Shown: positions 9,835-56,749, counted from the stretch's first letter. The stretch is 64,000 nt of DNA from Acidobacteriota bacterium (GCA_947470805.1 CANIVU010000009.1:1-64000), one strand, 5' to 3'. The notes: a model not told the origin generated them from the letters alone. Translations and numbers: made by a program.

Positions 9835-10572
9835 CTAGCGTACCCCGCGCTTATCCAGGAACGCACGCATCTGTTCCTGCGCCACGTCCGCCAGCGCGTT
9901 ACGCTCCATCACGGAGCGGGCGAATTGATAGGCCGCCTCCTGCGGCATGTCGATCTGTTCGTAGAACGCGCGCTTGCCGGTGGCGACGGTATAGTCCGAC
10001 GCGCCGGAAATTTGGGCGGCGAGTTCGTCGACGGCGCTGTTCAGCTCCCCCGCGGGGACGGCGCGGTTGATGAGTCCCCATTCCGCCGCTTCACGGGCCG
10101 TTACCGGGCGAGCGGTCAGCAACATCTCCATGGCCCGTTTGCGGCCGATGGCACGTGTTAACGCCACCATCGGCGTGGAGCAGAACAGGCCGATCTTCAC
10201 GCCAGGCGTGGCGAACCAGGCTTCTTCGCTGGCTATCGCCAGGTCGCAGGTGGCGACCAGTTGGCAGCCGGCCGCGGTAGCCACTCCTTGCACCTGCGCG
10301 ATCACTGGCTGGCGGATGGATTGGATTGTCTCCATCAGCTCCGTGCAAACGGCGAACACCTCCTCCGCCTGCGCGGCGGTGCAGCCGATCATTTCGCTCA
10401 GATCGTGGCCGGCGCTGAAGACGGGGCCATCAGCGGCGAGGATGACCACGCGGCCGGTGGCGGCGCGCAACGCGTCGATCAACGCGCGCATCATGGCGAG
10501 CGAGAGGGCGTTGCGGCGCGGACCGGCGAGCGTGATGCGATCGATGGGGCCGTTGGAATCGGCGCGAATCAC
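9835..10572 (-). CDS. ECHDC3-like crotonase-family protein lacking both catalytic glutamates
   Basis: 245 residues from a GTG at 10572 that overlaps the ThDP enzyme's stop (GTGA), with GGAAGG about 6 bases upstream. The crotonase fold is clear: [10 protein letters not shown], then [20 protein letters not shown] and [15 protein letters not shown]. The pattern VATAAGCQL...FATPGV...GLFCSTP is that of human ECHDC3 rather than classical enoyl-CoA hydratase. The two glutamates that activate water in rat hydratase (E144, E164) are replaced by Gln and Gly, so ordinary hydratase activity is unlikely. An acyl-CoA hydrolase, isomerase, lyase or accessory role is possible. Coupling to the ThDP enzyme suggests a shared acyl-CoA pathway. 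Confidence 0.82.
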
Positions 10573-12215
10573 TTCTTGCCTTCCAACTGCCAGGAGGTGA
10601 ACGGCGAACGGGCGCCGCGGATGTTGACGTTCAACACGTACGGCCCTTCGTAGGCGAACGCGCGGGCGAGCGCGGGACCCACCTGGTCCATACGGTCGAT
10701 GGTTTCGCCGCCGCCGCCGAAGCCCTGGCAGACCAGGTCGTAACGCGTGCGGCGGAGTTCGCAGGCGGTGGTGGTCCCTTGCACTTCGCCCTGCAGTTCG
10801 CGTTCCAGGCCCCAACCCCCATCGTTGCCAACGATGATGACGACCGGAACCCCATAGCGGACCATGGTGTCGAGTTCGGCGATGTAGAAGCCGAGGGAGC
10901 CATCGCCGGTCATCATCATGACGGGCTGCTTCGGACGAGCCATCTGCTGGGCCATCGCGAATGGCAGCGCGGCGCCGATGGTGGCCATGGGCCCCAGCCG
11001 CAGCCAGCCGCCCGAATGGAGCGCTGGAAGAATGGCGCGGCCCCAGTGAATGAAGTCGCCGCCATCGAAGGAGAGGAGCGGAGAGACGGGAAGGGTGCGC
11101 TTCACCTCCTGGAAAAACTGGCCGGGGTGGAGGAGAGTGTCGTCGCCGGATTGGGCCAAAAGTTTCGTCATCCACTCTTTACGCCACTTGCCGATTTGCT
11201 TCATCCAGGCCGTTTGGGGCTCCCATTGCTTCGACGGGAGCGCGGCCTCCAGGAACGTCCGCACATCGCCGACCACGCCGACGGCAACGTCGCGAACATT
11301 ACCGATTTCACGAGGTTCAACGTCGACTTGAATGAACTTCGTTTCCTTGCCGAAGAGGCGGGGGCCGCCCATGGCCAGGCGGTAATCGATGCGCTTCCCG
11401 AGGACGAGGACGACGTCGGCCGCTTGGAAGGCGGGGATGCAGCCGCGGTTGAGGGAGGGGTCGGCATAACCGCAGTGGCCGGCGAACTTTTCGCTGATCA
11501 CGCCGCGCGCCATGGTGACATCGAAGTAGGGCAGGCGGGTTTGTTTCAGGAACTTCGTCAGCGCGGCGCCGGCGTCGCTCCACCACAGGCCGCTGCCGCC
11601 GATGATCACCGGGCGTTCGGCGGAGGCCAGGAGGTCCATCGCGGCAGCCACGTCCTCGCATTGCCGGGCGATGCCGCGCGCTTTCGGCATATTCAGCGGA
11701 GCCTCGGTTTTGCCGGTGAAGACGTTGACGGGGATGGAAAGGTGCGTGGCGCCGTAGCGGCCGGAGAAGGCTTCATTGTAGGCGTGGCCGAGCGCGAACG
11801 GGACCTGGGACGGCGTGGTGACGAGGTGGGAAAACTTCGTAACCGGCGCGGCCATGCCGACCTGATCGATGTCCTGGAACACCACGCGGTGGCGCGCTTC
11901 CGTCGCTGGCGTGCCGCTGACGGCGATGACGGGGCTCCCGTTGGAATGGGCGGTGGCGATACCGGTAAGAGCGTTAGTATGGCCGGGACCGCCGGTGACG
12001 ATGGCCAGGCCGGGGCGGCGCGTCATGCGGCTCCAGCCGTCGGCGGCGTGGACCACGGCAGCTTCGTGACGCATGTGGACAATCGGCACTCCACGTTTCT
12101 CCGCGACGGAAAGCACCTCATTCAAATGATCTCCGACCAACGTAAAAATGCGGTCGATCCCGAGTTGCAGCGCACTCTCCACGAACAGTTCAGCACCAGT
12201 AGGCATGTCTGCCAT
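10569..12215 (-). CDS. ThDP-dependent enzyme of the acetolactate synthase/2-hydroxyacyl-CoA lyase superfamily
   Basis: 548 residues. The PYR domain contains the cofactor-activating glutamate in [14 protein letters not shown] central Rossmann-like domain follows (about 190-330), then the PP domain with the ThDP/Mg motif GDGSLGF...NDGGWG, with about 26 residues between GDG and NDGG as expected. It should cleave or form a C-C bond next to a carbonyl. Acetolactate synthase, 2-hydroxyacyl-CoA lyase and oxalyl-CoA decarboxylase are all in this superfamily and cannot be separated here. No ALS small subunit is nearby, and the coupled crotonase-like gene favours an acyl-CoA substrate. The start at 12215 leaves only 13 bases to the divergent epimerase gene; an ATG at 12206 is an alternative. 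Confidence 0.83.
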
Positions 12216-42912: not shown

Positions 42913-44552
42913 AATCGCTAAAAGCCCTCCTCACCGCCTCCCGTATCCGTTCCCTCGCCTCACCCACCACCATCCAGCGCGGCCAGGACTACTACGCCCG
43001 CAACCGTGTCCAGTCGCTCTCCAATACCTTCACCGGCATCCGCGCCTACATCCTCGGCCAGCGCGTCTACTCCGTAGAGCTCTCCGCCATCGGCAAGGAG
43101 CTCGATTTCGATTGCACCTGTCCCATCGGCGAACAAGGCGACTTCTGCAAACACTGCGTCGCCGTCGCCATCGCCTTCCTCAACGATCCCCCGCCCGAAG
43201 ACGTTTTCCCCATCGAAGAACTGCGCGCCCAACTCACCGCCGAACCCCCCGCCCGCCTCGCCGAACTCATCCTCGAATGGGCGGCGGATAACGAACAGCT
43301 CCAAAACAGCCTCTACAGCTACCAGGCCGTGCTGGCTGGGCCCGATGCCGCCATCGCCGCCCTCCGCCGCGCCCTCGTCAAGGCGCTCCGCGAATCGCCG
43401 CACGATTTCCCCACCTACGCCGAAGCCGTCCACACCGCGCTCGACCCCATCGAAAAGCTCCTCCCCACCGCCCCGGATTCGGTCATCGAGATCTGCGAGG
43501 AAGCTGCCAAAGCCCTCATCCCCGCCAGCGAATACGCCGACGAGGATGACGAGGACTTCGAACTCCTCCAGGACCGCATCGAGGACATCCATCGCGATGC
43601 CGCCCTCCTCGCCAAACCCAATCCCGTCCAGCTCGCCCAGCGGCTCTTCCAACTCGAAACCACGTCGTCCCAATACCTCTTCTGTGACGCCGCCGAGGCC
43701 TACAAAGAAGTGCTCGGCCCCACCGGCCTGGCGGCGTACCGGGACCTCGCCGAAAACGCGACGTTCGCCCGTCCCGGCGAGCGGGACCGCATTCTCGAAT
43801 CGATCGCCCGCGCCACCGGCAGGTTGGAGGACCTGATCGCCGTCCTCGCCCGCGACCTCTCCACCCCGGACCGTTTCATCCGCATCGTCATCGCCTGTCG
43901 CCAAGCCGACAACCCACCCCAAGCCCTAACCTGGGCAGAGCGTGGCCACAAACTCTATCCCTCCAGCGCCGCACTCCGCGAAGTGCTGGCGCAAGAGTAC
44001 CACCAAGCCAACCGCCCCGCGGACGCCCTCAAGCTAATCTGGAAAACCTACGCCGAGTCCCCCGGCCTGCCCCTGTACGAAGTTCTAAAGAGCCACGCCG
44101 AGCGAGCCAACGATTGGCCCGAACACCGCGACCGCGCCCTCGGCCTGATCCGCAGCAAAATCGCCGCCTCCCAGGGCAAGCAGGACCACTCCGCCCTCGT
44201 AGAAATCCTTCTCGCCGAAAACAACCAAGAAGAAGCATGGCGCGAAGCGCAAGCCGCCGGTTGCGCCTCCTACCTGTGGCTCCAACTCGCCGAAGCCCGC
44301 GAAAAGAAACACCCCGGCGACGCCGCCCCGATTTACCTCAAACGCGCCGACGAAGAACTGGCCCGCGTCCGCAACTCCAACTACGACGTCCCCATCGCCC
44401 TCCTCCTCCATGCCGCCAAACTCCTGAAGAAGATCGGCGCCCTCCCCCACTTCCACCGCCACCTCGCCGCCCTCCGCGAACAACACAAATCCAAACGCAA
44501 ATTCATCGAACTCCTCAACAAAAACCGCGCCAAACTCGAAGACGCTAAATAG
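42909..44552 (+). CDS. SWIM zinc-finger protein with long helical repeat region
   Basis: 547 residues from ATG 42909, overlapping the sulfatase stop (ATGA). A SWIM zinc finger lies at residues 69-83 (C69, C71, C80, H82 in CTCPIGEQGDFCKHC), preceded by the usual RGQDYYARNRV segment. The remaining about 450 residues are Ala/Glu-rich helices, probably HEAT or TPR-like (ALVEILLAENNQEEAWREAQAAG). Such SWIM proteins are often DNA- or protein-binding and sometimes accompany SNF2 helicases; none is adjacent. A frame continues upstream through the sulfatase gene but is the shadow of that gene. Function unknown. Confidence 0.8.
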   Translation: MKSLKALLTASRIRSLASPTTIQRGQDYYARNRVQSLSNTFTGIRAYILGQRVYSVELSAIGKELDFDCTCPIGEQGDFCKHCVAVAIAFLNDPPPEDVFPIEELRAQLTAEPPARLAELILEWAADNEQLQNSLYSYQAVLAGPDAAIAALRRALVKALRESPHDFPTYAEAVHTALDPIEKLLPTAPDSVIEICEEAAKALIPASEYADEDDEDFELLQDRIEDIHRDAALLAKPNPVQLAQRLFQLETTSSQYLFCDAAEAYKEVLGPTGLAAYRDLAENATFARPGERDRILESIARATGRLEDLIAVLARDLSTPDRFIRIVIACRQADNPPQALTWAERGHKLYPSSAALREVLAQEYHQANRPADALKLIWKTYAESPGLPLYEVLKSHAERANDWPEHRDRALGLIRSKIAASQGKQDHSALVEILLAENNQEEAWREAQAAGCASYLWLQLAEAREKKHPGDAAPIYLKRADEELARVRNSNYDVPIALLLHAAKLLKKIGALPHFHRHLAALREQHKSKRKFIELLNKNRAKLEDAK

Positions 44553-44588
44553 CCTGTCACTATTTCCCGGCACTCCTCGCTACAGAAA

Positions 44589-44611
44589 GTGACGCCTGTT
44601 CCACGCGTCAC
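44589..44611. promoter_or_regulatory. Palindromic operator candidate before the lipid-type cluster
   Basis: GTGACGC (44589-44595) and GCGTCAC (44605-44611) are perfect 7-bp arms with a 9-base spacer, ending 25 bases before the first start codon of the cluster. A third half-site, GTCACT, lies at 44556-44561. The layout suits binding of a dimeric regulator near the transcription start. No regulator gene sits inside the operon. Confidence 0.45.
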
Positions 44612-44635
44612 AAAATCCTGTCGAGAGGCCCTCCC

Positions 44636-45919
44636 ATGCGCTCCGTGAAATGCGATGAAACGCACCAACTCCGTGACACCATCGCCGCCCACTTTCCCGT
44701 AAAGGGAATGGACCTCCTCGCCCGCACCGAACCCTTCCACCGCTGGTTCTCTGCCCGTCGCGATAGCGGCACCTGGATGGGCAACCGCACCGTCGAAACA
44801 CGCGACCGCCTCCGTGTCCGCCTCGCCAATCTCGATGGCACCGTCGCCGAAGGTCTCAACTTCGCCGCCCAGGACTACCTCGGCCTCAACGATCACCCCG
44901 CCGTCCACCAGGCCGTAGTTGACGCTCTCCACGAACACGGCCCCCACTCCGCCGGCTCCGACATGCTCCTCGGCAACTCCCGCGACTCCCTCGCCCTCCG
45001 CGCCGAACTCGGCCACTTCCTCCAGCGCGAACACGTCGTCCTCTTCCCCACAGGATGGGGCGCCGCCTTTGGCGCCATCCGCGGTCTTGTCCGCCGTAAC
45101 GATCACCTCGTCCTCGATCGCCTCTCCCACAACTCCCTCCAAAACGGCGCCCGCTCCGCCACCGAAAACATCAGCTATTTCGACCACAACGACATCGATT
45201 CCGCCGAACAAATCCTCCGTGCCATCCGCGCCAAAGACAAGCAAAACGCCATTCTTCTCGTCACCGAAAGCGTCTTCTCCATGGATGCCGATTCCCCCAA
45301 CCTCCGCCGCCTCGGCGAACTCTGCCGCGAATACTCCGCTGCCTTCCTCGTCGACGTCGCCCACGATCTCGGCGCCCTCGGCCCCACCGGCCTCGGCCGC
45401 CTCGAAGAACAGGACGCCCTCGGCATGCCGGACCTCATCATGGGCGCCTTCTCCAAAACCTTTTGCACCACCGGCGGTTTCCTCGCCGTCCGCAGCGAAG
45501 CCGTCGCCCAGTACGTCCGTTGCTTCGGGGATGCCAACACGTTCTCCAACGCCATGACGCCGCTCCAGATCGCCGCCGTCCGCGCCACCCTCAAAATCAT
45601 CCGCCAACCCGAAGGCGCCCATCTCCGCGCCAAACTGCTCCAGGCCTCCCTCCGCCTCCGCCAGTCGCTCACCACACGCGGCCTCAAAATCTTCGGTGAA
45701 CCCTGCGCCCTCGTCCCCGTCCACACCGGCCCGGAACGGCTCGGCCGCACGGCCGCCGCTCTCTCCGCCCGCCGTGGCGTCCTCGTCAATTCTGTCGAAT
45801 ACCCCGCCGTCGCCATCGGCGCCACCCGCCTCCGCCTCCAACTCTCCCCCGCCCATGCCGATGAGGACCTCGATCACTGCGCCCAGGTCATCGCCGATTC
45901 CATCTCGGAGGCAAAATGA
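44636..45919 (+). CDS. Alpha-oxoamine synthase (PLP-dependent aminoacyl-ketone synthase)
   Basis: 427 residues. Fold-type I PLP enzyme of the 8-amino-7-oxononanoate/5-aminolevulinate/serine palmitoyltransferase family. LNFAAQDYLGL is the N-terminal signature, H104SAGS plus LGN follow, then DRLSHNSLQNGARS. The cofactor aspartate and histidine are in DVAHDLGALGPTG (D240, H243). K274 in GAFSKTFCTTGG forms the Schiff base. Such enzymes condense an acyl thioester with an amino acid, with loss of CO2, giving an alpha-aminoketone. Here the acyl donor is probably loaded on the neighbouring carrier protein. It starts a seven-gene operon, overlaps the next gene by 4 bases and has a GAGAGG ribosome-binding site. 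It is unlikely to be BioF, because no other biotin gene is near. Confidence 0.85.
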   Translation: MRSVKCDETHQLRDTIAAHFPVKGMDLLARTEPFHRWFSARRDSGTWMGNRTVETRDRLRVRLANLDGTVAEGLNFAAQDYLGLNDHPAVHQAVVDALHEHGPHSAGSDMLLGNSRDSLALRAELGHFLQREHVVLFPTGWGAAFGAIRGLVRRNDHLVLDRLSHNSLQNGARSATENISYFDHNDIDSAEQILRAIRAKDKQNAILLVTESVFSMDADSPNLRRLGELCREYSAAFLVDVAHDLGALGPTGLGRLEEQDALGMPDLIMGAFSKTFCTTGGFLAVRSEAVAQYVRCFGDANTFSNAMTPLQIAAVRATLKIIRQPEGAHLRAKLLQASLRLRQSLTTRGLKIFGEPCALVPVHTGPERLGRTAAALSARRGVLVNSVEYPAVAIGATRLRLQLSPAHADEDLDHCAQVIADSISEAK

Positions 45920-47190
45920 GCCCCCGCGTCGTCATCACCGGCCTCGGCACCATCGTCCCCAAGGCCCCAAACGTCGCCGCGTTTGAACTCATGCTTCGCC
46001 AGGGCCGCTCGTCCATCACCTACCGCCCCGAAGCCGAAGCCCATGGCCTCTCCTGCCACGTCGCCGGCGTTCCCGAAGTGGACGAACAGCGCCTCGCGGC
46101 CATCACCATCCCCGCCCAGCGCCGCTCCATGAACGGCATCATGGATCTCGCCACCCTCGCCGCCATCGAATGTTGGCAGCAAGCCGGCCTGCCCTACACC
46201 CCCGGAGACGATGGCCCCATGGACCCCCACACCGGCATGGTCTTCGGCACCGGCATCGCAGGCGTCGAAACCCTCTGCGCCACCGTCGCGCCCTCCGTCG
46301 AATCCGCCCAGGTCCGTCAGCTTGGCGCCAAACGTGTCGAACAAACCATGTCGAGCGGCGCCGCCGCCTGCGTCTCCGGCCTCCTCGGCATCGGCGGCCC
46401 CGTCATTTCCCCCAGCGCCGCCGGCACCACCGGCTCCGCCTGCCTCGTCCAGGCCCTGCGCCTCCTCCGCGCCGGTCTCTGCCGCCGCATCCTCGCCGGC
46501 TCCGCCGAAACGTCAAATATCTACACCTGGGCCATGTTCGACGCCATGCGCGTCCTCGTTCGCGATGGCAACCACGACCCCGCCTCCGCCTCCCGCCCCT
46601 TCAGCGCCGCCGCCGCCGGCTTCGTCGCCTCCGGCGGCGCCGGTGCCCTCATGCTCGAAACCCTGGAAAGCGCCCGCGAACGGGGCGCGCACATCTACGC
46701 CGAACTCGCCGGCGGCTACGAAAACTGCGGCGGCCAGCGCAGCGGCGGAACCATGACCCGCCAAAGCCCCGAAGGCGTCGAACGCTGCATTCGAGGAGCT
46801 CTCGTAGATGCCGCCGTCCACCCCCGCGAAATCGATTACGTCAACGCACACAGCACCGCCACCATGGGCGATCGAAACGAAATCCGCAGCATCGCCAATG
46901 CCCTCAGCCGCAACGGCGACGACTTCCCCTGGGTCAATGCCACCAAGTCCCTCATCGGTCACTGCATCGGCGGCGCCGGCTCCGTCGAAAGCGTCGCAAC
47001 CGTTCTCCAACTCCACGGCGGCTTCCTCCATCCATCTCTAAACTGCGAAGCAGTCCACTCCGAAATCGCCGCGATCGACAGCCGCATTCCCCGCCGTTGC
47101 CTCGAAAAACCCCTAACCACCGCGCTCAAAACCAGCTTCGGCTTCGGCGATGTCAACGCCTGCCTAATCTTCCGCGCCTGGCCCAACTAA
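45916..47190 (+). CDS. Beta-ketoacyl-ACP synthase homologue lacking the active-site cysteine
   Basis: 424 residues with the thiolase fold of FabF-type (KAS II) synthases: N-terminal RVVITGLGTIVP, histidines H312 (NAHSTATMGD) and H349 with K344 (TKSLIGHCIGGAGSVES), and a C-terminal FGFGDVNACLIFR. The nucleophile position (FabF C163, in TACTSG) is G170 in SAAGTTGSAC. The sequence aligns without gaps around it, so the cysteine is really absent; the nearest Cys (176) is six residues on. Normal condensation through an acyl-cysteine is not expected. Homologues with Gln there (KSQ, chain-length factors) decarboxylate malonyl-ACP or act as scaffolds; a similar role with the next-door ACP is plausible. 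It overlaps the oxoamine synthase gene by 4 bases. Confidence 0.88.
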   Translation: MSPRVVITGLGTIVPKAPNVAAFELMLRQGRSSITYRPEAEAHGLSCHVAGVPEVDEQRLAAITIPAQRRSMNGIMDLATLAAIECWQQAGLPYTPGDDGPMDPHTGMVFGTGIAGVETLCATVAPSVESAQVRQLGAKRVEQTMSSGAAACVSGLLGIGGPVISPSAAGTTGSACLVQALRLLRAGLCRRILAGSAETSNIYTWAMFDAMRVLVRDGNHDPASASRPFSAAAAGFVASGGAGALMLETLESARERGAHIYAELAGGYENCGGQRSGGTMTRQSPEGVERCIRGALVDAAVHPREIDYVNAHSTATMGDRNEIRSIANALSRNGDDFPWVNATKSLIGHCIGGAGSVESVATVLQLHGGFLHPSLNCEAVHSEIAAIDSRIPRRCLEKPLTTALKTSFGFGDVNACLIFRAWPN

Positions 47191-47211
47191 CGCCCCAAAA
47201 GGAAAACCCAA

Positions 47212-47466
47212 ATGAACCGCCAACAAATCACCGCACAGTTCCTCGACCTCCTGAAGCCCTTCACCCGCAAGCTCCCCCCTGGCTTCCAGGTCACAGACCC
47301 CCTCTCCCTCTCCACCGACCTCAACGTCGACTCCGCCGACCTCGTCGATCTCGTCCTCCAAATCGAAGAACGCTTCGAAGTCGAAGTGCCCGACAGTGCC
47401 ATCACCGAACTAAAAACCGTGGGCCAAGTCATCGACCTGCTCGAAGCACGTCTCGTCGCCGCCTGA
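47212..47466 (+). CDS. Acyl carrier protein
   Basis: 84 residues, normal ACP length. The phosphopantetheine attachment site is S41 in NVDSADLVDL, followed by helix III (VPDSAITELKTVGQVIDLL). It carries the acyl chain on a 4'-phosphopantetheine arm added by a transferase encoded elsewhere. The N-terminal 25 residues are more basic than in FabD/F-type ACPs and the recognition helix differs from the primary-metabolism form, so this is a dedicated carrier. It lies 21 bases after the ketosynthase-like gene and 10 bases before the desaturase gene. It probably presents acyl groups to the oxoamine synthase and the desaturase. Confidence 0.9.
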   Translation: MNRQQITAQFLDLLKPFTRKLPPGFQVTDPLSLSTDLNVDSADLVDLVLQIEERFEVEVPDSAITELKTVGQVIDLLEARLVAA

Positions 47467-47476
47467 GACCTCCGCC

Positions 47477-48472
47477 ATGCCGCCCACCCGCCAGGCGCTC
47501 CGCGCCGCCATTGCCAATTGCTACACCAAAAGCAACGCCCGCGCCTCGCTCACCGCCGTGGTCGACATTGCCGCCTTCTGTCTCTTCTTCGGCCTCGCCG
47601 CCACCTCCGGCCCGCTGCTGCTCCGTATCCCAAGCGCCTTCGCCGAAGCCATCTGCATGGCCCGCCTCTTCATCCTCGGTCACGACGTCTGCCACGGCAG
47701 TCTCTTCACCCGTCCCTGGCAACGCGCCATCTTCGGCCGCATCCTCTTCCTCCCCACCCTCACCACTTACAGCCTCTGGCAAATCGGTCACAACTCCGTC
47801 CACCACGGCTATACCAACCTCAAGGGGCGCGATTCCGTCTGGCCACCCTTCTCCCCGCAGGAATTCGCCTCCCTCCCTCCCCTCCGCCGTGCCCTGGAAC
47901 ACGTCTACCGCTCCCCCATCGGCCAAGGCCTCTACTATTTCTGCGAAATCTGGTGGAAACAACTCTTCCAGCCCGCCCCCACCCGTTCCACCCGGCCCAG
48001 CTACTGGCTGGACTCCTGGCTCGTCGCCGCCTTCGCCGCTCTCGCCATCGGCGTCGCTAAAACACCCACAGCCATCATCCTCTCCTGCCTCCTCCCCTTC
48101 GCCTTCTGGAATCACCTCATGGGCCTTGTCATCTATCTCCACCACACCCACCCGGACACCAAGTGGTACCGCGACCGCGAATCCTGGTCCTTCACCGCCG
48201 GCCAGCTCGATTCCACCATCCACGCCGAACTCCCCTTCGGCCTTCACCGCCTGCTCCACAACATCCTCGAACACACCGCCCACCACATCGACGTCACCAT
48301 TCCCTTCTACGCCCTGCCAAAAGCCCAACGGCAATTGGAAGAAACGTTCCAAGGCCACATCGTCCGTCAACCCTGGTCCTGGCGAGCGTTCCTCCACACC
48401 ACACGCACCTGCCAGCTCTTCGATTTCGATCGCCAAACCTGGGTCCCCTTCCGTCCTCCCGCAACGCCATGA
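47477..48472 (+). CDS. Membrane fatty-acid desaturase
   Basis: 331 residues. The three histidine boxes of di-iron membrane desaturases are present: HDVCHGS (HxxxH), HNSVHHGYTN (HxxHH) and HTAHHIDV (HxxHH). Hydrophobic helices lie around residues 25-65, 180-200 and 205-225. The pattern resembles DesA/omega-6-type acyl-lipid desaturases, which introduce a cis double bond using O2 and an electron donor. Here the substrate may be an acyl-ACP or the lipid product of the cluster. Its stop overlaps the exporter permease start (ATGA). Hydroxylases share the same boxes, so hydroxylation cannot be excluded. Confidence 0.87.
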   Translation: MPPTRQALRAAIANCYTKSNARASLTAVVDIAAFCLFFGLAATSGPLLLRIPSAFAEAICMARLFILGHDVCHGSLFTRPWQRAIFGRILFLPTLTTYSLWQIGHNSVHHGYTNLKGRDSVWPPFSPQEFASLPPLRRALEHVYRSPIGQGLYYFCEIWWKQLFQPAPTRSTRPSYWLDSWLVAAFAALAIGVAKTPTAIILSCLLPFAFWNHLMGLVIYLHHTHPDTKWYRDRESWSFTAGQLDSTIHAELPFGLHRLLHNILEHTAHHIDVTIPFYALPKAQRQLEETFQGHIVRQPWSWRAFLHTTRTCQLFDFDRQTWVPFRPPATP

Positions 48473-49575
48473 CCAACACACTCCTCTGGAAAAACCTCGT
48501 CCACGACCCCCTCCGCTTCGCCATCGCCGTCGCCGGCATCGGCTTCTCCGCCTTCCTCATGACCGTTCAATCGGATCTCCTCTTCGGCTTCACCGAAGCC
48601 GCCTCCCGCATCATCGATGCCACCGATGGCGCTATCTGGATCATGCCCCGCGGCGTCCCCTGTTTCGATTACGCCACCCACATGCCCGCCGCCATCCGCG
48701 AACGCGCCCACGGCGTGCCCGGCGTCGCTGCTGTCGGAAAGGTCGCCGCCGGCTTCACCGCCATCCAACGGGCCGATGGCCTTAGCCAGGTCGTCCTCCT
48801 AATCGGTATCGAAGACTCCGTCGCCGGCCGTCTCCCCACCGGGCCCCGCGGCCAACGCAACCTCGCCATCGTCGATGTCACCGATGCCCAGCGCCTCGGC
48901 GCCGCCCAACTCCCCGCCGATATCGAAATCGCCGCCAAACGCGCCCGCATCGAAACCAACGCCACCGGCTTCGCCTCCTTCCTCGGCTCGCCCTATCTCT
49001 TCACCGCCTACCAGGACGCACTCGAATATCTCTCTGTGCCCTCCGGCAAAACGATGTTCGTCATCGTCAAACTCGCCCCCGGCGCGGACGCCTCCCAAAC
49101 ACGGGACCTCCTCCAAACCCGCTTCCCGGAATTCGATGTCTGGGAGAAGGCGGACTTCTCCCGCCGCGCCCGCCTCTTCTGGCTCGTCCAAACCGGCGCC
49201 GGCGGCGCGCTCTCCCTCGCCGCCGTCCTCGGCTTTGTCATCGGCCTCGCCGTCGTCTCCCAAACCATGTACGCCGCCACCATGGAACACCTCGATGAGT
49301 TCGCCACTCTGAAAGCGCTCGGCGCATCCAATTGGACCGTTCGCCGCATGGTCATCGGCCAGTCATTTCTCTGCGGCATCGTCGGCGCCGCCGTCGGCTT
49401 CCTCGCCGTGCCTCCAGCCGTTACGCTGGCAAGCTCCGTCATCACCTGGATCGTCTCGCCCCTTTGGATGTACGCCCTCGTCGGTGGAGCGCTCACGGTC
49501 CTCTGCGCCGCCGCCGCGCTCCTGGCGGTCCAGCCAGCCATCAGCATCGAACCCGGGCGCGTGTTCCGTGCCTGA
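48469..49575 (+). CDS. DevC-like ABC transporter permease (FtsX/MacB fold)
   Basis: 368 residues from ATG 48469. One N-terminal helix (LRFAIAVAGIGFSAFLMTVQS) is followed by a roughly 220-residue periplasmic domain and three C-terminal helices (about 245-270, 295-320, 330-355), the FtsX/MacB topology. LAVVSQTMYAATMEHLDEFATLKALGAS is the loop typical of the DevC branch, which exports heterocyst glycolipids in cyanobacteria together with DevA and DevB. Here the partners are the ATPase and membrane-fusion genes that follow. The permease stop overlaps the ATPase gene start by 8 bases. Substrate is unknown but presumably the lipid product made by the upstream enzymes. Confidence 0.85.
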   Translation: MTNTLLWKNLVHDPLRFAIAVAGIGFSAFLMTVQSDLLFGFTEAASRIIDATDGAIWIMPRGVPCFDYATHMPAAIRERAHGVPGVAAVGKVAAGFTAIQRADGLSQVVLLIGIEDSVAGRLPTGPRGQRNLAIVDVTDAQRLGAAQLPADIEIAAKRARIETNATGFASFLGSPYLFTAYQDALEYLSVPSGKTMFVIVKLAPGADASQTRDLLQTRFPEFDVWEKADFSRRARLFWLVQTGAGGALSLAAVLGFVIGLAVVSQTMYAATMEHLDEFATLKALGASNWTVRRMVIGQSFLCGIVGAAVGFLAVPPAVTLASSVITWIVSPLWMYALVGGALTVLCAAAALLAVQPAISIEPGRVFRA

Positions 49576-50263
49576 CGCCGCTGTCCTCGCCGCCAACGGC
49601 GTCTCCATCATCTATGGCCAGGGTCCCCTCGCCGCCACCGCCGTAGACAACGTGTCCCTCAATTTCCAACCCGGCGAAGTCACTCTGCTCATGGGTGCCT
49701 CCGGCAGCGGTAAAACCACGCTGCTCTCCGCGCTCGGCTGTCTGCGAACGGTGGATAGCGGGCATATCACGCTGCTCGGCCGCCCGCTCGGCGGCCAGGC
49801 CGAAGCAGCGCTCGGCCAGCTCCGCAGCCGCCACATCGGCTTCGTCTTTCAGTTCTTCCGCCTCTTCCGCTCGCTCACGGCCCAGGAAAACGTGGAGCTC
49901 GGCCTGGAGTTCGCCAAAGCCACCGGCGCCGCAACCCAAACCGCCGCCGAAACCCTCGCCGCCGTCGGCCTGGCGGCCAAGCGCCATCTCCGGCCGGATC
50001 AGATGAGCGGCGGAGAACGCCAGCGCGTAGCCGTCGCCCGGGCGTTGGCCAAGCAGCCGGAAATCCTGCTGGCGGACGAACCAACGGCGGCATTGGACAG
50101 TACCTCCGGCCGCCAGGTGGCAGCGCTCATCCGGGAGCAAGTCAAGGAGCGCGGCATGGTGGCCGTCATTGCCACCCACGACCCAAGGCTCGCGCCCTAC
50201 GGGGACCGCGTCGTCGAAATGCGGGATGGCCGCGTGGTGAGGGATGAAAGGAGCAACGGATGA
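49568..50263 (+). CDS. DevA/LolD-like ABC transporter ATP-binding subunit
   Basis: 231 residues from GTG 49568. Walker A GASGSGKTT, Q-loop region, signature SGGERQRVAVARAL, Walker B ILLADEPTAALD and the switch histidine in IATHDPRL are all complete. It belongs to the MacB/LolD/DevA subclass that powers tripartite efflux with FtsX-type permeases. It overlaps the permease gene by 8 bases and the membrane-fusion gene by 4 bases, so the three exporter subunits are co-translated. About 230 residues is the usual length for this class. Confidence 0.93.
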   Translation: MPDAAVLAANGVSIIYGQGPLAATAVDNVSLNFQPGEVTLLMGASGSGKTTLLSALGCLRTVDSGHITLLGRPLGGQAEAALGQLRSRHIGFVFQFFRLFRSLTAQENVELGLEFAKATGAATQTAAETLAAVGLAAKRHLRPDQMSGGERQRVAVARALAKQPEILLADEPTAALDSTSGRQVAALIREQVKERGMVAVIATHDPRLAPYGDRVVEMRDGRVVRDERSNG

Positions 50264-51282
50264 AAGCCGCATTGGCATTGTTGATCGGAGTCTTACTCGG
50301 AGCCGCCGCGGTATGGCGAACGGGGCGAGTGGAAGCAACCGCCGTGGCCAGTCCGCCACCACCCAAACACGCCCCGCTAGCCGCCGCGCAGGGGCGGGTG
50401 GAGGGGATGACGGAAAGCGTGGAAGTCGGAGCCGCCACCGATGGCGTCATCAAAGCGGTGTTCGTAAAGGAGGGCGATACCGTCACGCGGAACCAGCCCA
50501 TCGCCGCCATCGATTGTGAAAATCTGACCGCCGAAACCCGGTCGTTCGCGGCCGCCGTGGAAGCCGCCCGCCAGGCCAGAGTCAGGGTGCGCCGCGGCAG
50601 CCGGGAGGAGGAGAGGAGGATCGCCGCCGAAGAGCAAAGAGCCGCCCAAGCCATCCAGCAGCAAGCCCGCCGCCAACACGAACGCATGCAGCAGCTACTG
50701 CAAAATGGAGACATCTCCCGCCACACCGCGGAGAATGCACAGCGGGAGTGGCAAACCGCGGAAGCCGCCGCCAACGCAGCGGCAGCGAAACAAAATCTAG
50801 CCGAAGCCGGCGCCCTCCCTGAGGAAGAGGCCCGTTCCACCGCGGAGGTACAAGCCGCCGAAGAGCACCAGCAAGCCGCCACCGCAAAGGAGGAGAAGTG
50901 TATTGTCCGCGCCCCCATCACCGGGACGATGACGAGGCTATACAGAAAGCCAGGCGAAGGCTACAGCACGTTTGCCGGCAGACCCATCGCGACGATGGCG
51001 GATCTGACGGGCCGCAGAATCCGGGCGGAGGTAGACGAGCGCGACCTCGGCCGCGTGCATAAGGGGCAAAAGGTGAGAATCCAAGCCGAAGGCCACCCCG
51101 AGCCATTCGCGGGAACGGTGATCTGGACGGCGGTAGTGATGGGCCGAAAGACCGCCCGCAGCCCCGACCCCGCCGAAAAATCGGACCGCGACATCCTCGA
51201 AGCCCTCATCCAGCCCGAAGGAAACCCCACCGCCCTCCCCATCGGCCTCCGCGTCGTCGTCGTGGAGTTCCTGGGAAACTAA
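50260..51282 (+). CDS. DevB-like membrane-fusion (periplasmic adaptor) protein
   Basis: 340 residues. A single N-terminal membrane anchor (ALALLIGVLLGAAAVW) is followed by a lipoyl half (GVIKAVFVKEGDTVTRNQPIAAI), a long alpha-helical hairpin (about 90-205, rich in Ala, Gln, Glu, Arg), the second lipoyl half (APITGTMTRLYRKPGEGYST) and a beta-barrel domain. The C-terminal part has VMGRKTARSPDPAEKSDRDILEALI, like DevB. It should bridge the inner-membrane transporter to a TolC-type outer-membrane channel, which is not encoded in this window. It ends the seven-gene cluster. Confidence 0.88.
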   Translation: MKAALALLIGVLLGAAAVWRTGRVEATAVASPPPPKHAPLAAAQGRVEGMTESVEVGAATDGVIKAVFVKEGDTVTRNQPIAAIDCENLTAETRSFAAAVEAARQARVRVRRGSREEERRIAAEEQRAAQAIQQQARRQHERMQQLLQNGDISRHTAENAQREWQTAEAAANAAAAKQNLAEAGALPEEEARSTAEVQAAEEHQQAATAKEEKCIVRAPITGTMTRLYRKPGEGYSTFAGRPIATMADLTGRRIRAEVDERDLGRVHKGQKVRIQAEGHPEPFAGTVIWTAVVMGRKTARSPDPAEKSDRDILEALIQPEGNPTALPIGLRVVVVEFLGN

Positions 51283-51306
51283 GTCGCCGTCGCCGCCGGA
51301 TTCGCT

Positions 51307-51909
51307 ATGATATTGGACACTCCCATGAGTGAGCCTGGCGAAGTAACTGGCCTGCTGCAACGCAGCGCGAACGGAGATCGGCAAGCGGAAGAGCAACTCT
51401 TTACGCAGGTCTACGATTCGCTCCGCCGCATCGCCGCATCGCATCTGCGCAAGGAGCGAAAGGACCACACCTTGCAGCCCACGGCGTTGATCAACGAAGC
51501 GTTTGTGTTGCTCATGCGCGGCGCGGAGATCAACTTCAATTCCCGCGATCATTTCTACGCCATCGCCGCCACCCAGATGCGACGGATACTCATCGACCAC
51601 GCCCGCCGCCACACCGCCGCCAAGCGTCCCAACGCCCTGCACCGTGTAGAGCTGGAAAAAGCCCAAAGCTTCTCCATGGAAGACCCGGACTTCCTGTTGG
51701 CGTTGGACCAATCCCTCCACCGCCTGGCCGCCGAATCCGAGCGCGCCTGCAAAGTCGTCGAACTCCACGTCTTCGCCGGCCTGACCCTGGAACAAGTCGC
51801 GACGGCCCTGAACCGCTCCTCCCGAACCATCAAGCGCGACTGGGACACCGCCCAAAAATGGCTCTACCGCGACCTCGGCCGCACGGTGAGTGCGTCTACT
51901 TCAGCATAG
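51307..51909 (+). CDS. ECF-type RNA polymerase sigma factor (Sig-70_X6/TIGR02999 type)
   Basis: 200 residues (alternative ATG at 51325). Region 2 is visible as LFTQVYDSLRRIAASHLRKERKDHTLQPTALINEAFVLLM and region 4 as LEQVATALNRSSRTIKRDWDTAQKWLYRDL. It belongs to the ECF group that occurs beside Ser/Thr kinases in Acidobacteria and Planctomycetes and has no anti-sigma gene next to it. Here a kinase-TPR gene lies on the opposite strand about 2 kb away (53921-56749). It follows the exporter by 24 bases on the same strand, so it may be co-transcribed with, or control, the lipid-type cluster. Its end overlaps the convergent tyrosinase gene by 14 bases. Confidence 0.9.
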   Translation: MILDTPMSEPGEVTGLLQRSANGDRQAEEQLFTQVYDSLRRIAASHLRKERKDHTLQPTALINEAFVLLMRGAEINFNSRDHFYAIAATQMRRILIDHARRHTAAKRPNALHRVELEKAQSFSMEDPDFLLALDQSLHRLAAESERACKVVELHVFAGLTLEQVATALNRSSRTIKRDWDTAQKWLYRDLGRTVSASTSA

Positions 51910-53452
51910 GCCCCTTGCCTAAAACGTACTTCTCAAGCCGTACGCTCCCTATCAGTGGAAGAACCTTCCCTCCTTTCCCGATCGGTGAAAGGTTGAGTTT
52001 CAACTTTGAAGAGTTAGTTGTCCCAAGAAGCTTGGACAACTGCTTCGCGGTGCTACGATCTGCGAAAAAGTCAACAGTATCACCGTTGCCAATGTGATGT
52101 TTCACTAGAGAAGCTCTCCAGCTCGAAAACTGAATCGTTCCCATTTCCACACGCCTCCGACCCTTTGCTACCGATACTCGGAATGGCGACCTCGTTTGCC
52201 CCCCCCATTGGATTCCCTCGAGCCTGAGGCGGTAGCTTACTTCTCCCGTTGCTGTTTCGGCAAATAAGATATCGTCTTCAGTAGCGGCCTCATTTTGGGA
52301 AAGAATGATTGTTCGAGTCCGAATTGCTTGCGGGCAGCTGAAATCTCCATTGATGAGTACTCCCGCGCACTGCTCTTGATTCTCCTGTTTGGTACATGGC
52401 GGCTCCAAGGTCAATTCGCCCATACCCTCGTAGGAGGCTTGCCAAAATCGTGTGTCGCGCAGGACCTCACCTACATTGAACGACCGAGTTGGAAATCCTC
52501 CTCGTTTTGGTAAGTCGCTACACTTCTTTGCGACGTCCAGGTTCGTTACAACGTCCCTAATCGAAACTACTCGCTCAGACTCAACATGAAAGGTCTTCTG
52601 TGGCGCATCGTACGAGAGACATCGCGGTTCAGGGAGATCCTTCAACACTAGTTTGCTCCAGATTCTACTTTCGACAATAAAGGGAACTGAACCGGTCACG
52701 TGGTTGGCGCATAACTCGCACTTAAGGCGGGGCGAACTGTCTAGAAGTCTTACCAACATCGCGTCAATACCAGCATGAAACGGCTGAAATAATGGGTCAG
52801 ATGCCGCCGTCCAGGAGTTTTCCATCACACCGGTGCTTTTAGTGTGTACTCGTTCATGAACGTTTTGTTCAAGAAAACCAGCACTTACATCCGTTGTGAT
52901 CCCCCCCCCGAGCGCGTTGATCCCATCGGGATTTGAGCAAAAATAGCTATTTGCACCAGTGTCGAGCACGTGTTGCCACGAAGCCCGCTCAATATCAAAA
53001 ATCGGGTACGGCAGCGGGTAGCGGTTCGTGTTTTTCAGCAGTTGGCACCTAGGATCACCATTTGAACATCGGAATACACTTGGCACACGCGGACTTTGTG
53101 CTGGACTCCAATAAGGCATTAGGAATGGCTTCGATGAAACAGCAAGAGTGAACAATTCCTCGGTTAGGACTAGATATGCGTGATGCCAGATTAAAAACTC
53201 GGCTCGCCAATGGGCACAGTTGTCGGTACGCCCCCCCCATCCATTATGAAACTGCGCCCAATTTGCGATCACGTCAGGATGAATATTTGAGAGAGCCTCA
53301 GTGTAGGAAGCGACGACCGCCTCACCCTGTTGATCCGGAATCAGTTTTCGGCGTGGAATCTCTTGCGCATAAATCCCGGTATAGGTCGCCGCACAGGATA
53401 TGCCTATAACTAACCACAATAAGCGAGATTTAAAAGGGGCAATCCGTTTCAT
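51896..53452 (-). CDS. Exported tyrosinase-like copper protein
   Basis: 518 residues with a hydrophobic N-terminal signal (about 10-30, LLWLVIGISCAATYTGIYAQ). Two type 3 copper sites fit the tyrosinase/hemocyanin pattern. CuA: H69 (FHNGW), H81 and H90 (NCAHWRAEFLIWHHAYL). CuB: H199 and H203 (NVHERVH) and H226 (DPLFQPFHAGID). A long C-terminal region (about 245-518) of unknown fold has many cysteines and may be a lid or binding domain. It probably oxidises phenols, possibly cross-linking or pigment-forming. Third-position bases are less biased and AT content is higher than in flanking genes. It is the last gene of a three-gene minus operon. Confidence 0.78.
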   Translation of the reverse strand: MKRIAPFKSRLLWLVIGISCAATYTGIYAQEIPRRKLIPDQQGEAVVASYTEALSNIHPDVIANWAQFHNGWGGRTDNCAHWRAEFLIWHHAYLVLTEELFTLAVSSKPFLMPYWSPAQSPRVPSVFRCSNGDPRCQLLKNTNRYPLPYPIFDIERASWQHVLDTGANSYFCSNPDGINALGGGITTDVSAGFLEQNVHERVHTKSTGVMENSWTAASDPLFQPFHAGIDAMLVRLLDSSPRLKCELCANHVTGSVPFIVESRIWSKLVLKDLPEPRCLSYDAPQKTFHVESERVVSIRDVVTNLDVAKKCSDLPKRGGFPTRSFNVGEVLRDTRFWQASYEGMGELTLEPPCTKQENQEQCAGVLINGDFSCPQAIRTRTIILSQNEAATEDDILFAETATGEVSYRLRLEGIQWGGQTRSPFRVSVAKGRRRVEMGTIQFSSWRASLVKHHIGNGDTVDFFADRSTAKQLSKLLGTTNSSKLKLNLSPIGKGGKVLPLIGSVRLEKYVLGKGPMLK

Positions 53453-53920: not shown

Positions 53921-56749
53921 CTATTCTCCTGTGTGAGTGAGTGACTTCCCAAATACATCCAGCTTGGCGGCCTCATCTGCAATCATCCCGCTGCTTCGCA
54001 ATAATCCAGGCCAGGATCGCTGCGCTAGATACCATATGGCCGCTGCCCGTGGAACAGACGCTGGGATTTTCCACAAATCCAACCCGGTACCAACGGCTAT
54101 TGCAGGCCACATGAATGATGACGTAACTTGCAGTGCTTGTAAGTATAATCGCTCTGCCGACTTGGGCCCTTGCTCCAGGCAGACCAATTCTCCTGCTGTC
54201 CAAACAGTTACACCTGTAAACACAGGCAGCGTCGGCCAGTCTTCAGATATGGCTTTCAGCCGCCTCAAACCTGCTCCGTCTCCTGAAAGTCGATAGAATG
54301 TGGCAAGTTCCTTAATGGGTTGGGGTGCCCGTTCACCCTCGGCGGCCTCGCGAGCGGCCGCGACGGCAGCGGACTGATTTCCCAGTACCAATTCCAAATA
54401 TGCAAGATGTAGGAGGCGTCGCACTACAATACCGTGCCTTCCCCATTTCCTCGCCTCGGCAACGTGCTTGCGGCAATGCTCAACCGCAAGGTCTAGCCTT
54501 CCGGAATCGGCATACAAGCATGTCAAGAATCCGAGCGATTGATCCTTAATAGATATGTCTCCCTTCGCGCTAGCCGCGAGAAAACACTCTCTTGTCTTTT
54601 CGTACTCACCGCGCAGGAATGCGGTTTGGCCGAGCCATTTCCAGTAAAAGGGGTCATTGCCAAGGGTTCGCAGCGCCTCCAGCCAGTGCTCACTTGCATC
54701 GAACTCCTTCTTCATCCACCCCGTCGCAACCAGATATGCCGCGGCTCGTGCGGACTTACCTATCGCCCATGCCCCCTCAAACGCCCGCTGCGCCTCATCA
54801 AACCGGTAATGGTGAAACAGCGACGAACCCAGAAAATACTGAGCTGACTCATCCCCCGGGTAATGCACCGCCCAAGCCTGCACCGACGTCAATTGCCGGT
54901 CGTACTGAAAACTATCCTCAAAATAGAGCGTCTCCAGCCGGTACCGCTCCCGAAACGTCACCCGCCGCCGCGACAACAAATCCACCGTCTTACCCCAATG
55001 CGCATGCCCCTCCGCAAACCGCGCCTTCGAAATATAGAAATCCGCCAACTCCTGCTGCGCCGCCACAAATCCCGGATCCGCCGCCAACGCCTCCTTCAAT
55101 AACTGCTCCGCCAACTCATCCGGATCCCCACGCCGCCACGCCAACACCGCCCGCGAATACGCCGCCAGCGCCTCCCAACTCCCCGTACTCACCTCCTGCG
55201 GCGGCCGGTCAAACTCCGCAATCTGCGCCAACGTCTCCCCCGCCTCCCCCCGCACCCACTCCCCCGCCAGCCGGAACTGCCCCAACATGTCCTCCGCCCC
55301 GCTCGCCCGGAACGTCTTCTCGGCCTTCCACCCCACCGCATCCGGCCGCCCTCGCAACGTCTCCAGCACAAACGTCAAAACGTAATCCCCGCCCACCGCC
55401 GCCATCGTCCCATGCAAAACCGCCGGAACCCCCAACCGCCACGCCAACTCACGCAGCTTCCCCACCTCCAACGTCGCTCCCGCCGCCAACCCCATCCGGT
55501 CCACTGCCGCATCCCGCTGCGCCGCCGTCACCAACTGCAGTTGCGGACTCTGGTCCAACAACGATTGCAACAACGCCGTCGCCCCATCAAACCGCTTGTC
55601 CCCCGTCAAGTTTTGCACCGGAGCCACCAGCAACTTCGCCACCCGCCCCGGCCGCCCCAGCCAACTCCCCGCGGACCGTGACGCCACCACTCCCACCGTC
55701 GCCGCCGCCGTCAACCCGCCCAGCCACCACAACGTCTCCCGGCGCCTCCAAAACCCAACCTCCAATGCCGCAACCGCCTCCTCCGCGCTCCCCCACCGCT
55801 GCCGCGGGTCCATCTCCAGGCACTTTCCAATCACCCGCTCCCAATTCCCCGGCGGCCGTCCCCCTTTCCTCTCGCTCGGATGCCAGCCCATCACCATCTC
55901 ATGCAACACAATCCCCAGCGCATAAACATCGCTTGCCCCACTCACACTCTTCCCCGCCCATTGCTCCGGAGCCACATATCCCGGCGTCCCCAGCCGCAAA
56001 CTCGTCGTCGACCGGTCCTCCCCCTCCCGTACCGGTACCGCCAACCCGAAGTCCGTGATCACCACCCGTTCCCCCGCCAGCATCACGTTCGACGGTTTGA
56101 AATCCCGATGCACTACCCGCGCCGCGTGCGCCGCGCTCAACCCCTTCGCCAACTGCCGCGCAATCCCCAACGCCTCCGCCGGATCTAACTTACCCTTGAA
56201 CTCAATCCGCGCCGCCAGCGTCTCTCCTTCCAATAACTCCATCGCGAAGTAGAACAGCCGCCGTCCGCCGTGCTCCCATTCGCGACCGATGTCAAACACT
56301 CGAGCCACGTTCGGGTGAGTAATCTCCCGCGCCAATCCAATCTCCCGCTTGAACCGCGAAAGATAAGCCTCCTCCTCCGCCAAATCAGGATGCAGAATCT
56401 TCAGCGCCACCCGCACCCGCAGCGTCTCATCCTGCGCCGCATACACTTCACCCATCCCGCCCCGGCCCACAAACTTCTCCACCACAAACCGTCCGTCAAC
56501 CACGTCCCCCGGGCGCAGTCTCGGCTCAACCACCGGTGTATCCTGCTCTTCACCCACCCACGAAGGTAGCTCCCGGATGGAAATCTCCCCCTCCGGCACG
56601 GGCACATCCAACAGACTCAGAACCTCGTCCACCAAATCGCGATCGTCAGTACGGCTCTCCAGGAAGCTGCGCCAGCTCTCCCGGGGCCTGTCGGATGCCT
56701 CTGCAAGCAAGTCCGACAGCAGTTCCCATCGGCCCTCCTTACCGCCCAT
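53921..56749 (-). CDS. Ser/Thr protein kinase with C-terminal TPR region
   Basis: 942 residues. An N-terminal 75-residue segment precedes a kinase domain (about 88-335) with GRGGMGEVYAA, K117, HRD 214-216, DFG 233-235 and GTPGYVAPEQ. A hydrophobic stretch (WWLGGLTAAATVGVVAS, about 345-365) is a single membrane helix. The rest is a roughly 140-residue linker with an adenylyl-cyclase-associated-like KLLVAPVQNLTGD start, then TPR-like repeats (LLKEALAADPGFVAAQQELADFY, EAQRAFEGAWAIGKSARAAAYLV). It leads the operon kinase-unknown-tyrosinase. The coding composition changes within the gene near 54.9 kb: the 5' part is strongly C-biased on the plus strand, the 3' part is not. Confidence 0.9.
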   Translation of the reverse strand: MGGKEGRWELLSDLLAEASDRPRESWRSFLESRTDDRDLVDEVLSLLDVPVPEGEISIRELPSWVGEEQDTPVVEPRLRPGDVVDGRFVVEKFVGRGGMGEVYAAQDETLRVRVALKILHPDLAEEEAYLSRFKREIGLAREITHPNVARVFDIGREWEHGGRRLFYFAMELLEGETLAARIEFKGKLDPAEALGIARQLAKGLSAAHAARVVHRDFKPSNVMLAGERVVITDFGLAVPVREGEDRSTTSLRLGTPGYVAPEQWAGKSVSGASDVYALGIVLHEMVMGWHPSERKGGRPPGNWERVIGKCLEMDPRQRWGSAEEAVAALEVGFWRRRETLWWLGGLTAAATVGVVASRSAGSWLGRPGRVAKLLVAPVQNLTGDKRFDGATALLQSLLDQSPQLQLVTAAQRDAAVDRMGLAAGATLEVGKLRELAWRLGVPAVLHGTMAAVGGDYVLTFVLETLRGRPDAVGWKAEKTFRASGAEDMLGQFRLAGEWVRGEAGETLAQIAEFDRPPQEVSTGSWEALAAYSRAVLAWRRGDPDELAEQLLKEALAADPGFVAAQQELADFYISKARFAEGHAHWGKTVDLLSRRRVTFRERYRLETLYFEDSFQYDRQLTSVQAWAVHYPGDESAQYFLGSSLFHHYRFDEAQRAFEGAWAIGKSARAAAYLVATGWMKKEFDASEHWLEALRTLGNDPFYWKWLGQTAFLRGEYEKTRECFLAASAKGDISIKDQSLGFLTCLYADSGRLDLAVEHCRKHVAEARKWGRHGIVVRRLLHLAYLELVLGNQSAAVAAAREAAEGERAPQPIKELATFYRLSGDGAGLRRLKAISEDWPTLPVFTGVTVWTAGELVCLEQGPKSAERLYLQALQVTSSFMWPAIAVGTGLDLWKIPASVPRAAAIWYLAQRSWPGLLRSSGMIADEAAKLDVFGKSLTHTGE

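Follow-up and report, generated by a model that had tools for sequence, protein, structure and literature searches.

A seven-gene acidobacterial operon joining an alpha-oxoamine synthase of an unnamed clade to a dedicated acyl carrier protein, a desaturase and a DevCAB-like exporter

Among the alpha-oxoamine synthases (AOS), those of the CqsA/LqsA/JqsA type are associated with cell-cell signalling: the product of CqsA is 3-aminotridecan-4-one (PMC3376566), and JqsA has been linked to a sensor kinase and a regulator (PMC3566124). CqsA/LqsA enzymes form an aminoketone from an acyl thioester and either an amino acid or SAM. BioF, glycine C-acetyltransferase (Kbl), serine palmitoyltransferase (SPT) and 5-aminolevulinate synthase belong to the same superfamily. 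A different function is represented by DevBCA, which together with HgdD exports heterocyst glycolipids in Anabaena (PMC6161253). Here we describe a locus where distant relatives of both kinds of system are found side by side, in a window of 64,000 nucleotides from the genome of a soil-type Acidobacteriota bacterium (GCA_947470805.1, CANIVU010000009.1:1-64000).

Pfam and NCBIfam models identified seven genes on the plus strand between positions 44636 and 51282, in the order AOS, ketosynthase (KS) homologue, acyl carrier protein (ACP), desaturase, DevC, DevA and DevB. Reading of the DNA at the junctions revealed overlaps of 4 bp at AOS/KS, desaturase/DevC and DevA/DevB, and of 8 bp at DevC/DevA (the GTG start of devA at 49568 being deduced from this overlap), with gaps restricted to 21 bp between KS and ACP and 10 bp between ACP and desaturase. 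This is the pattern of a single operon, and the description in an earlier note on this DNA, of seven same-strand genes with overlaps of 4-8 bases or gaps of at most 21, proved accurate: the seven genes form a real, tight operon. Its GC content (0.60-0.68) and GC3 (0.75-0.82) are close to the values of the whole window, so it does not have the look of recent foreign origin. No sigma-70-like promoter was found within 44300-52100, which is a weak indicator in Acidobacteriota. The gene of an ECF sigma factor (Sig-70_X6; 51307..51909, +; TIGR02999, 199 bits, above cut-off; PF07638) starts 24 bp past the devB stop and is possibly co-transcribed with the operon. ECF sigma and Ser/Thr kinase genes often adjoin in Acidobacteriota, however, which makes the membership of this gene uncertain. 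Also downstream, on the opposite strand, there are genes for a tyrosinase-domain protein (51896-53452) and a Ser/Thr kinase-like protein (53921-56749).

The first gene (44636..45919, +) encodes a PLP-dependent AOS (PF00155, 129 bits) that conserves the catalytic residues H165, D240, H243, the PLP lysine Lys274 and R400. From its family and these intact residues, the enzyme is predicted to condense an acyl thioester with an amino acid to yield an aminoketone. No NCBIfam model exceeded its cut-off with this protein or with five relatives that were tested; the scores of the window AOS were 240 bits for bioF (cut-off 426), 212 and 192 for the Kbl models (460 and 493), 205, 197 and 147 for the SPT models (500, 640 and 670) and 150 for the CqsA/LqsA model NF005526 (428). 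Identity with PigH/RedN was about 29-32%. Plasmid and genome searches returned relatives with 40-50% identity, mostly from Alphaproteobacteria and Massilia, with other phyla contributing a few. A quick tree of 141 sequences, with long branches and without verified SPT, placed the window AOS as a basal branch of a clade with 100% support and a long branch of its own, separated from E. coli BioF and Kbl, one 5-aminolevulinate synthase, PigH-type enzymes, one member of the CqsA/LqsA family and further AOS enzymes from Acidobacteriota. This clade has 84 distinct members in the present set and is covered by no NCBIfam equivalog. Residues H104, W141, P221, D244 (directly after H243, in an AHD motif) and E388 are fixed in it; all of them are present in the window AOS and mostly absent from the reference enzymes. 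Although it has the superfamily and catalytic residues in common with BioF, Kbl, SPT and 5-aminolevulinate synthase, the window AOS belongs to a widespread, unnamed family and is neither a BioF, Kbl, 5-aminolevulinate synthase, PigH nor CqsA/LqsA enzyme. A firm grouping with BioF or Kbl, which the earlier note had named as evidence against its proposal, was not observed in the tree or in the model scores. In another acidobacterial locus (L035), an AOS from outside the clade (31%) shares its strand with a KS (32%). A search of the literature, with most subscription papers outside reach, found nothing on an AOS associated with an ACP and desaturase, an acyl-AMP ligase, a ketosynthase or a histidine kinase.

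The surroundings of the AOS relatives offer some indications about their function. A gene encoding a multi-pass sensor domain is located within five genes of the AOS in 53 of the 83 clade loci, and in two more (L052 and L097) it is adjacent although the AOS was uncalled, which gives a total of 55. A profile of this domain matched 75 of the 1106 genes in the clade loci; in roughly a hundred further loci, its only matches were duplicates of the same places. The domain has about four to six membrane spans according to hydropathy. Its fusion partner is a HisKA-HATPase histidine kinase in Alphaproteobacteria and GGDEF-EAL in Massilia (profile E values of 1e-12 to 1e-7), and a response regulator often accompanies the sensor (examples of the sensor genes are L042:13355-14779, L085:7258-8709 and 10257-11744, L079:5054-8174 and L060:6331-8886). 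Pfam detected only the output domains in these proteins, the multi-pass domain being matched by no model. In the sensors next to AOS genes this domain is N-terminal and shows the pattern xWFIP...GP...LR...GG.SP..W.

Genes that could be related to acyl supply are also found in the clade loci. Straight after the AOS of a Massilia locus (L060:10310-13975) there is a fusion of AMP-binding ligase, acyl-CoA dehydrogenase and carrier (ACP) domains, an AMP ligase gene lies beside the AOS relative of Nevskia, and on the Streptomyces clavuligerus plasmid pCLA1 (L043:10434-13287) a KS gene with its Cys is immediately upstream of the AOS relative; an adenylation-domain-like protein is encoded nearby on the opposite strand of this plasmid. 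In Luteibacter, a window-type AOS lies amid genes resembling RHS-repeat genes (L200:2478-13350). One Luteibacter genome harbours both a genuine CqsA-family member (NF005526, 539 bits) and a clade-type AOS (about 165 bits), and the putative kinase of the former has no similarity to the sensor profile (E about 1).

The frequent proximity of clade AOS genes to receptor genes suggests a signal-like product, and the product may be a chemical signal. The layout of the clade loci is similar to that of Cqs/Lqs systems, with the same AOS fold and reaction type and with membrane histidine kinases and response regulators close by, but the sensor is not recognisably CqsS-like. Under this explanation the window operon would make an aminoketone, or a hydroxyketone derived from it, that acts between cells as the CqsA, LqsA and JqsA products do, its synthase having gained an acyl supply and an exporter of its own. 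We regard this as possible but tentative for the acidobacterial locus. The window AOS is basal in the clade, there is no sensor kinase gene among the neighbours of the operon, the sensor domain has no match in the window or in the whole source genome, and none was found near the other basal clade members, acidobacterial ones included.

The second and third genes appear to have a common history. The KS homologue (45916..47190, +; PF00109, PF02801) is of the FabB/FabF type and aligns best with FabB-type enzymes of solved structure. It retains H312, K344 and H349 in an intact reading frame, but of the Cys, Lys and two His expected of a catalytic ketosynthase it has lost the Cys, replaced by Gly170 (S-A-A-G-T-T-G, compared with S-S-A-C-T-T-G in its nearest relative); alignments and DNA both support what the earlier note had said about the missing cysteine. 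The ACP (47212..47466, +; PF00550 and NCBIfam ACP models) conserves the attachment site Ser41. The nearest KS relative, 49% identical, comes from another acidobacterium, has its Cys and is directly followed by an ACP within a cluster resembling a secondary fatty-acid synthase (L139:7089-13081), with a reductase-like SDR, FabH, FabA, FabZ, KS, ACP, an acyltransferase and a PPTase-like protein, while AOS, desaturase and DevCAB are absent from the stretch read. Both KS proteins have the unusual motif H[S/L]TAT-M[G/A]D and, given this and the setting of the relative, a secondary fatty-acid synthase is the probable origin of the KS-ACP pair. Further KS relatives (about 39%) occur in unrelated contexts and keep the Cys where it could be aligned. 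The KS fold without a nucleophilic Cys is known from KSQ domains and from KS-beta (chain length factor) subunits; the former, like KS enzymes with a mutated Cys, can still decarboxylate malonyl-ACP. The window protein differs from both in having Gly rather than Gln, in keeping the His/Lys/His set and in having no Cys-bearing KS partner in the operon. Having lost its nucleophile, it cannot form an acyl-enzyme. By analogy, and in view of the retained Lys and His residues, it may be a malonyl-ACP decarboxylase; it may also be a partner subunit that binds the ACP, or a degenerate protein. No usable paper on Cys-less KS decarboxylases was found.

The Gly170 codon, GGC, is one transversion away from the Cys codon TGC, so the loss may be recent. 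This would fit an alternative where AOS-KS-ACP and desaturase-DevCAB are two adjoining modules rather than one working pathway, with a KS recently inactivated by a single base change, and the fact that the nearest relatives of each gene lie in different contexts is consistent with it. On the other hand, every joint overlaps except for the gaps of 21 and 10 bp, and the KS gene has kept its reading frame and its other active-site residues. We consider this alternative rather improbable.

The remaining genes encode a putative modification and export unit. The membrane fatty-acid desaturase (47477..48472, +; PF00487, 94 bits) has three His boxes, HDVCH, HNSVHH and HTAHH. A paralogue with 41% identity in the same genome (contig C16, L185:9004-10975) follows a methyltransferase-like gene, and a similar gene precedes DevCAB in locus L187. 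Another relative (38.7%) is near cyo and nif genes, and a search of 375 other acidobacterial genomes at E 1e-30 detected none. The exporter comprises a DevC-like FtsX-type permease (48469..49575, +; TIGR01185, 75 bits, cut-off 290; PF02687), a DevA-like ATPase (49568..50263, +; TIGR02982, 228 bits, cut-off 296) with Walker A, signature and Walker B motifs, and a DevB/HlyD-like membrane-fusion protein (50260..51282, +; TIGR02971, 95 bits, cut-off 129; PF13437, PF16576) with one N-terminal transmembrane segment by hydropathy. The Dev models rank first for DevC and DevA (heterocyst_DevA being the best of 190 families) and second for DevB, all below the curated cut-offs. The three components are those of DevBCA, but the order here is C-A-B and the operon has no glycosyltransferase or polyketide synthase. 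The closest DevCAB relatives have as neighbours LPG_synthase_C, P450 and aminotransferase genes (L186), a methyltransferase-like gene and a patatin (L187), or, on a Beijerinckia plasmid where the order is also C-A-B, KS III, PPTase and glycosyltransferase genes (L198). Ranking of the models and these lipid- or glycolipid-making neighbours agree with the assignment of the exporter to the DevBCA type in the earlier note, and its expectation of a TolC encoded outside the cluster was confirmed by 39 PF02321 matches in the source genome.

The full gene order was not found in a second genome among about 540 acidobacterial genomes and the best 80 AOS loci. Searches by KS and/or AOS covered 150 relatives plus a further 395 genomes from the phylum, those by desaturase plus permease 375 other acidobacterial genomes, and those by KS 249 genomes of Pseudomonadota, and none of these sets contained another copy of the cluster; nor were ACP, DevC or DevB genes detectable next to the AOS in the best 80 loci. 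The operon is so far unique to its source genome among the genomes searched. The order is thus not conserved in related genomes, a result that the earlier note had listed as speaking against its interpretation.

From the gene content, residues, clade membership and contexts we infer substrates, reaction order, export and any signalling role as follows. The dedicated ACP would be charged with a fatty acyl chain that general fatty-acid synthesis provides, and the AOS would join this thioester to an amino acid in a decarboxylating condensation, yielding a long-chain alpha-aminoketone. The desaturase would introduce a double bond into the chain or the product, which would probably be unsaturated, and DevCAB would export it with a TolC encoded elsewhere in the genome. 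The KS homologue would most likely act in malonyl-ACP decarboxylation or as a partner binding the ACP. Outside the cell the product could serve as a signal, the role suggested for the AOS relatives; alternatively, it could be an amphiphile that is secreted or resides in the envelope. Production and export of an acyl-derived aminoketone amphiphile is the reading we prefer, at about even odds. It is favoured by the tight same-strand order, the intact catalytic residues of AOS, ACP, desaturase and ATPase, the distinctness of the AOS from housekeeping enzymes, the acyl-supply genes near its relatives in Massilia, Nevskia and S. clavuligerus, the ACP beside the nearest KS relative, the lipid-type neighbours of DevCAB relatives, the TolC homologues and the DevBCA-HgdD precedent (PMC6161253). 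Against it, the set is present in one genome only, so that co-function rests on a single locus. The operon contains no acyl-loading enzyme, no separate ACP gene could be detected next to the AOS of other clade loci, enzymes of the desaturase family might have membrane lipids as substrates instead of the product, given the relative near cyo and nif genes, and the substrate of an exporter cannot be read from sequence.

Two other products can be given little weight. The earlier note had contemplated an unsaturated aminoketone or a sphingoid-like lipid; while the first part gains from the separation of the AOS from BioF and Kbl and from the DevCAB-like exporter, the second is unsupported. If the AOS were an SPT, with the other genes modifying and exporting a sphingoid lipid, the common superfamily would be accounted for, as would G107-S108 at the place where 5-aminolevulinate synthase has G-T, which leaves room for an amino acid other than glycine. 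Nevertheless, the SPT scores are far below their cut-offs, the AOS belongs to a separate clade (in a tree lacking verified SPT) and the operon has no ketoreductase or ceramide synthase, so sphingolipid synthesis seems quite unlikely. About as doubtful is a PigH/RedN-like route, where KS and ACP would extend the acyl chain and the AOS would close a pyrrole from a beta-ketoacyl thioester: prodiginine-type clusters also combine AOS, KS and ACP, but this KS has no nucleophile, PigH-type AOS enzymes form a separate tree group and the other prodiginine genes are absent.

If the proposed pathway is correct, it would add to what is known of Acidobacteriota a route to a lipid-like aminoketone, equipped with a dedicated exporter. 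More broadly, and only as a tentative idea, the clade might represent an undescribed, widespread family for aminoketone signalling, with a multi-pass receptor of its own whose outputs, histidine kinase or GGDEF-EAL, are interchanged, the window operon being a form of the system that brings its own acyl supply, desaturation and export. This would point to an oxoamine synthase family paired with one kind of receptor in Alphaproteobacteria and Massilia, whose product could be found through expression of a single gene, so that one could test directly which compounds these bacteria use for signalling.
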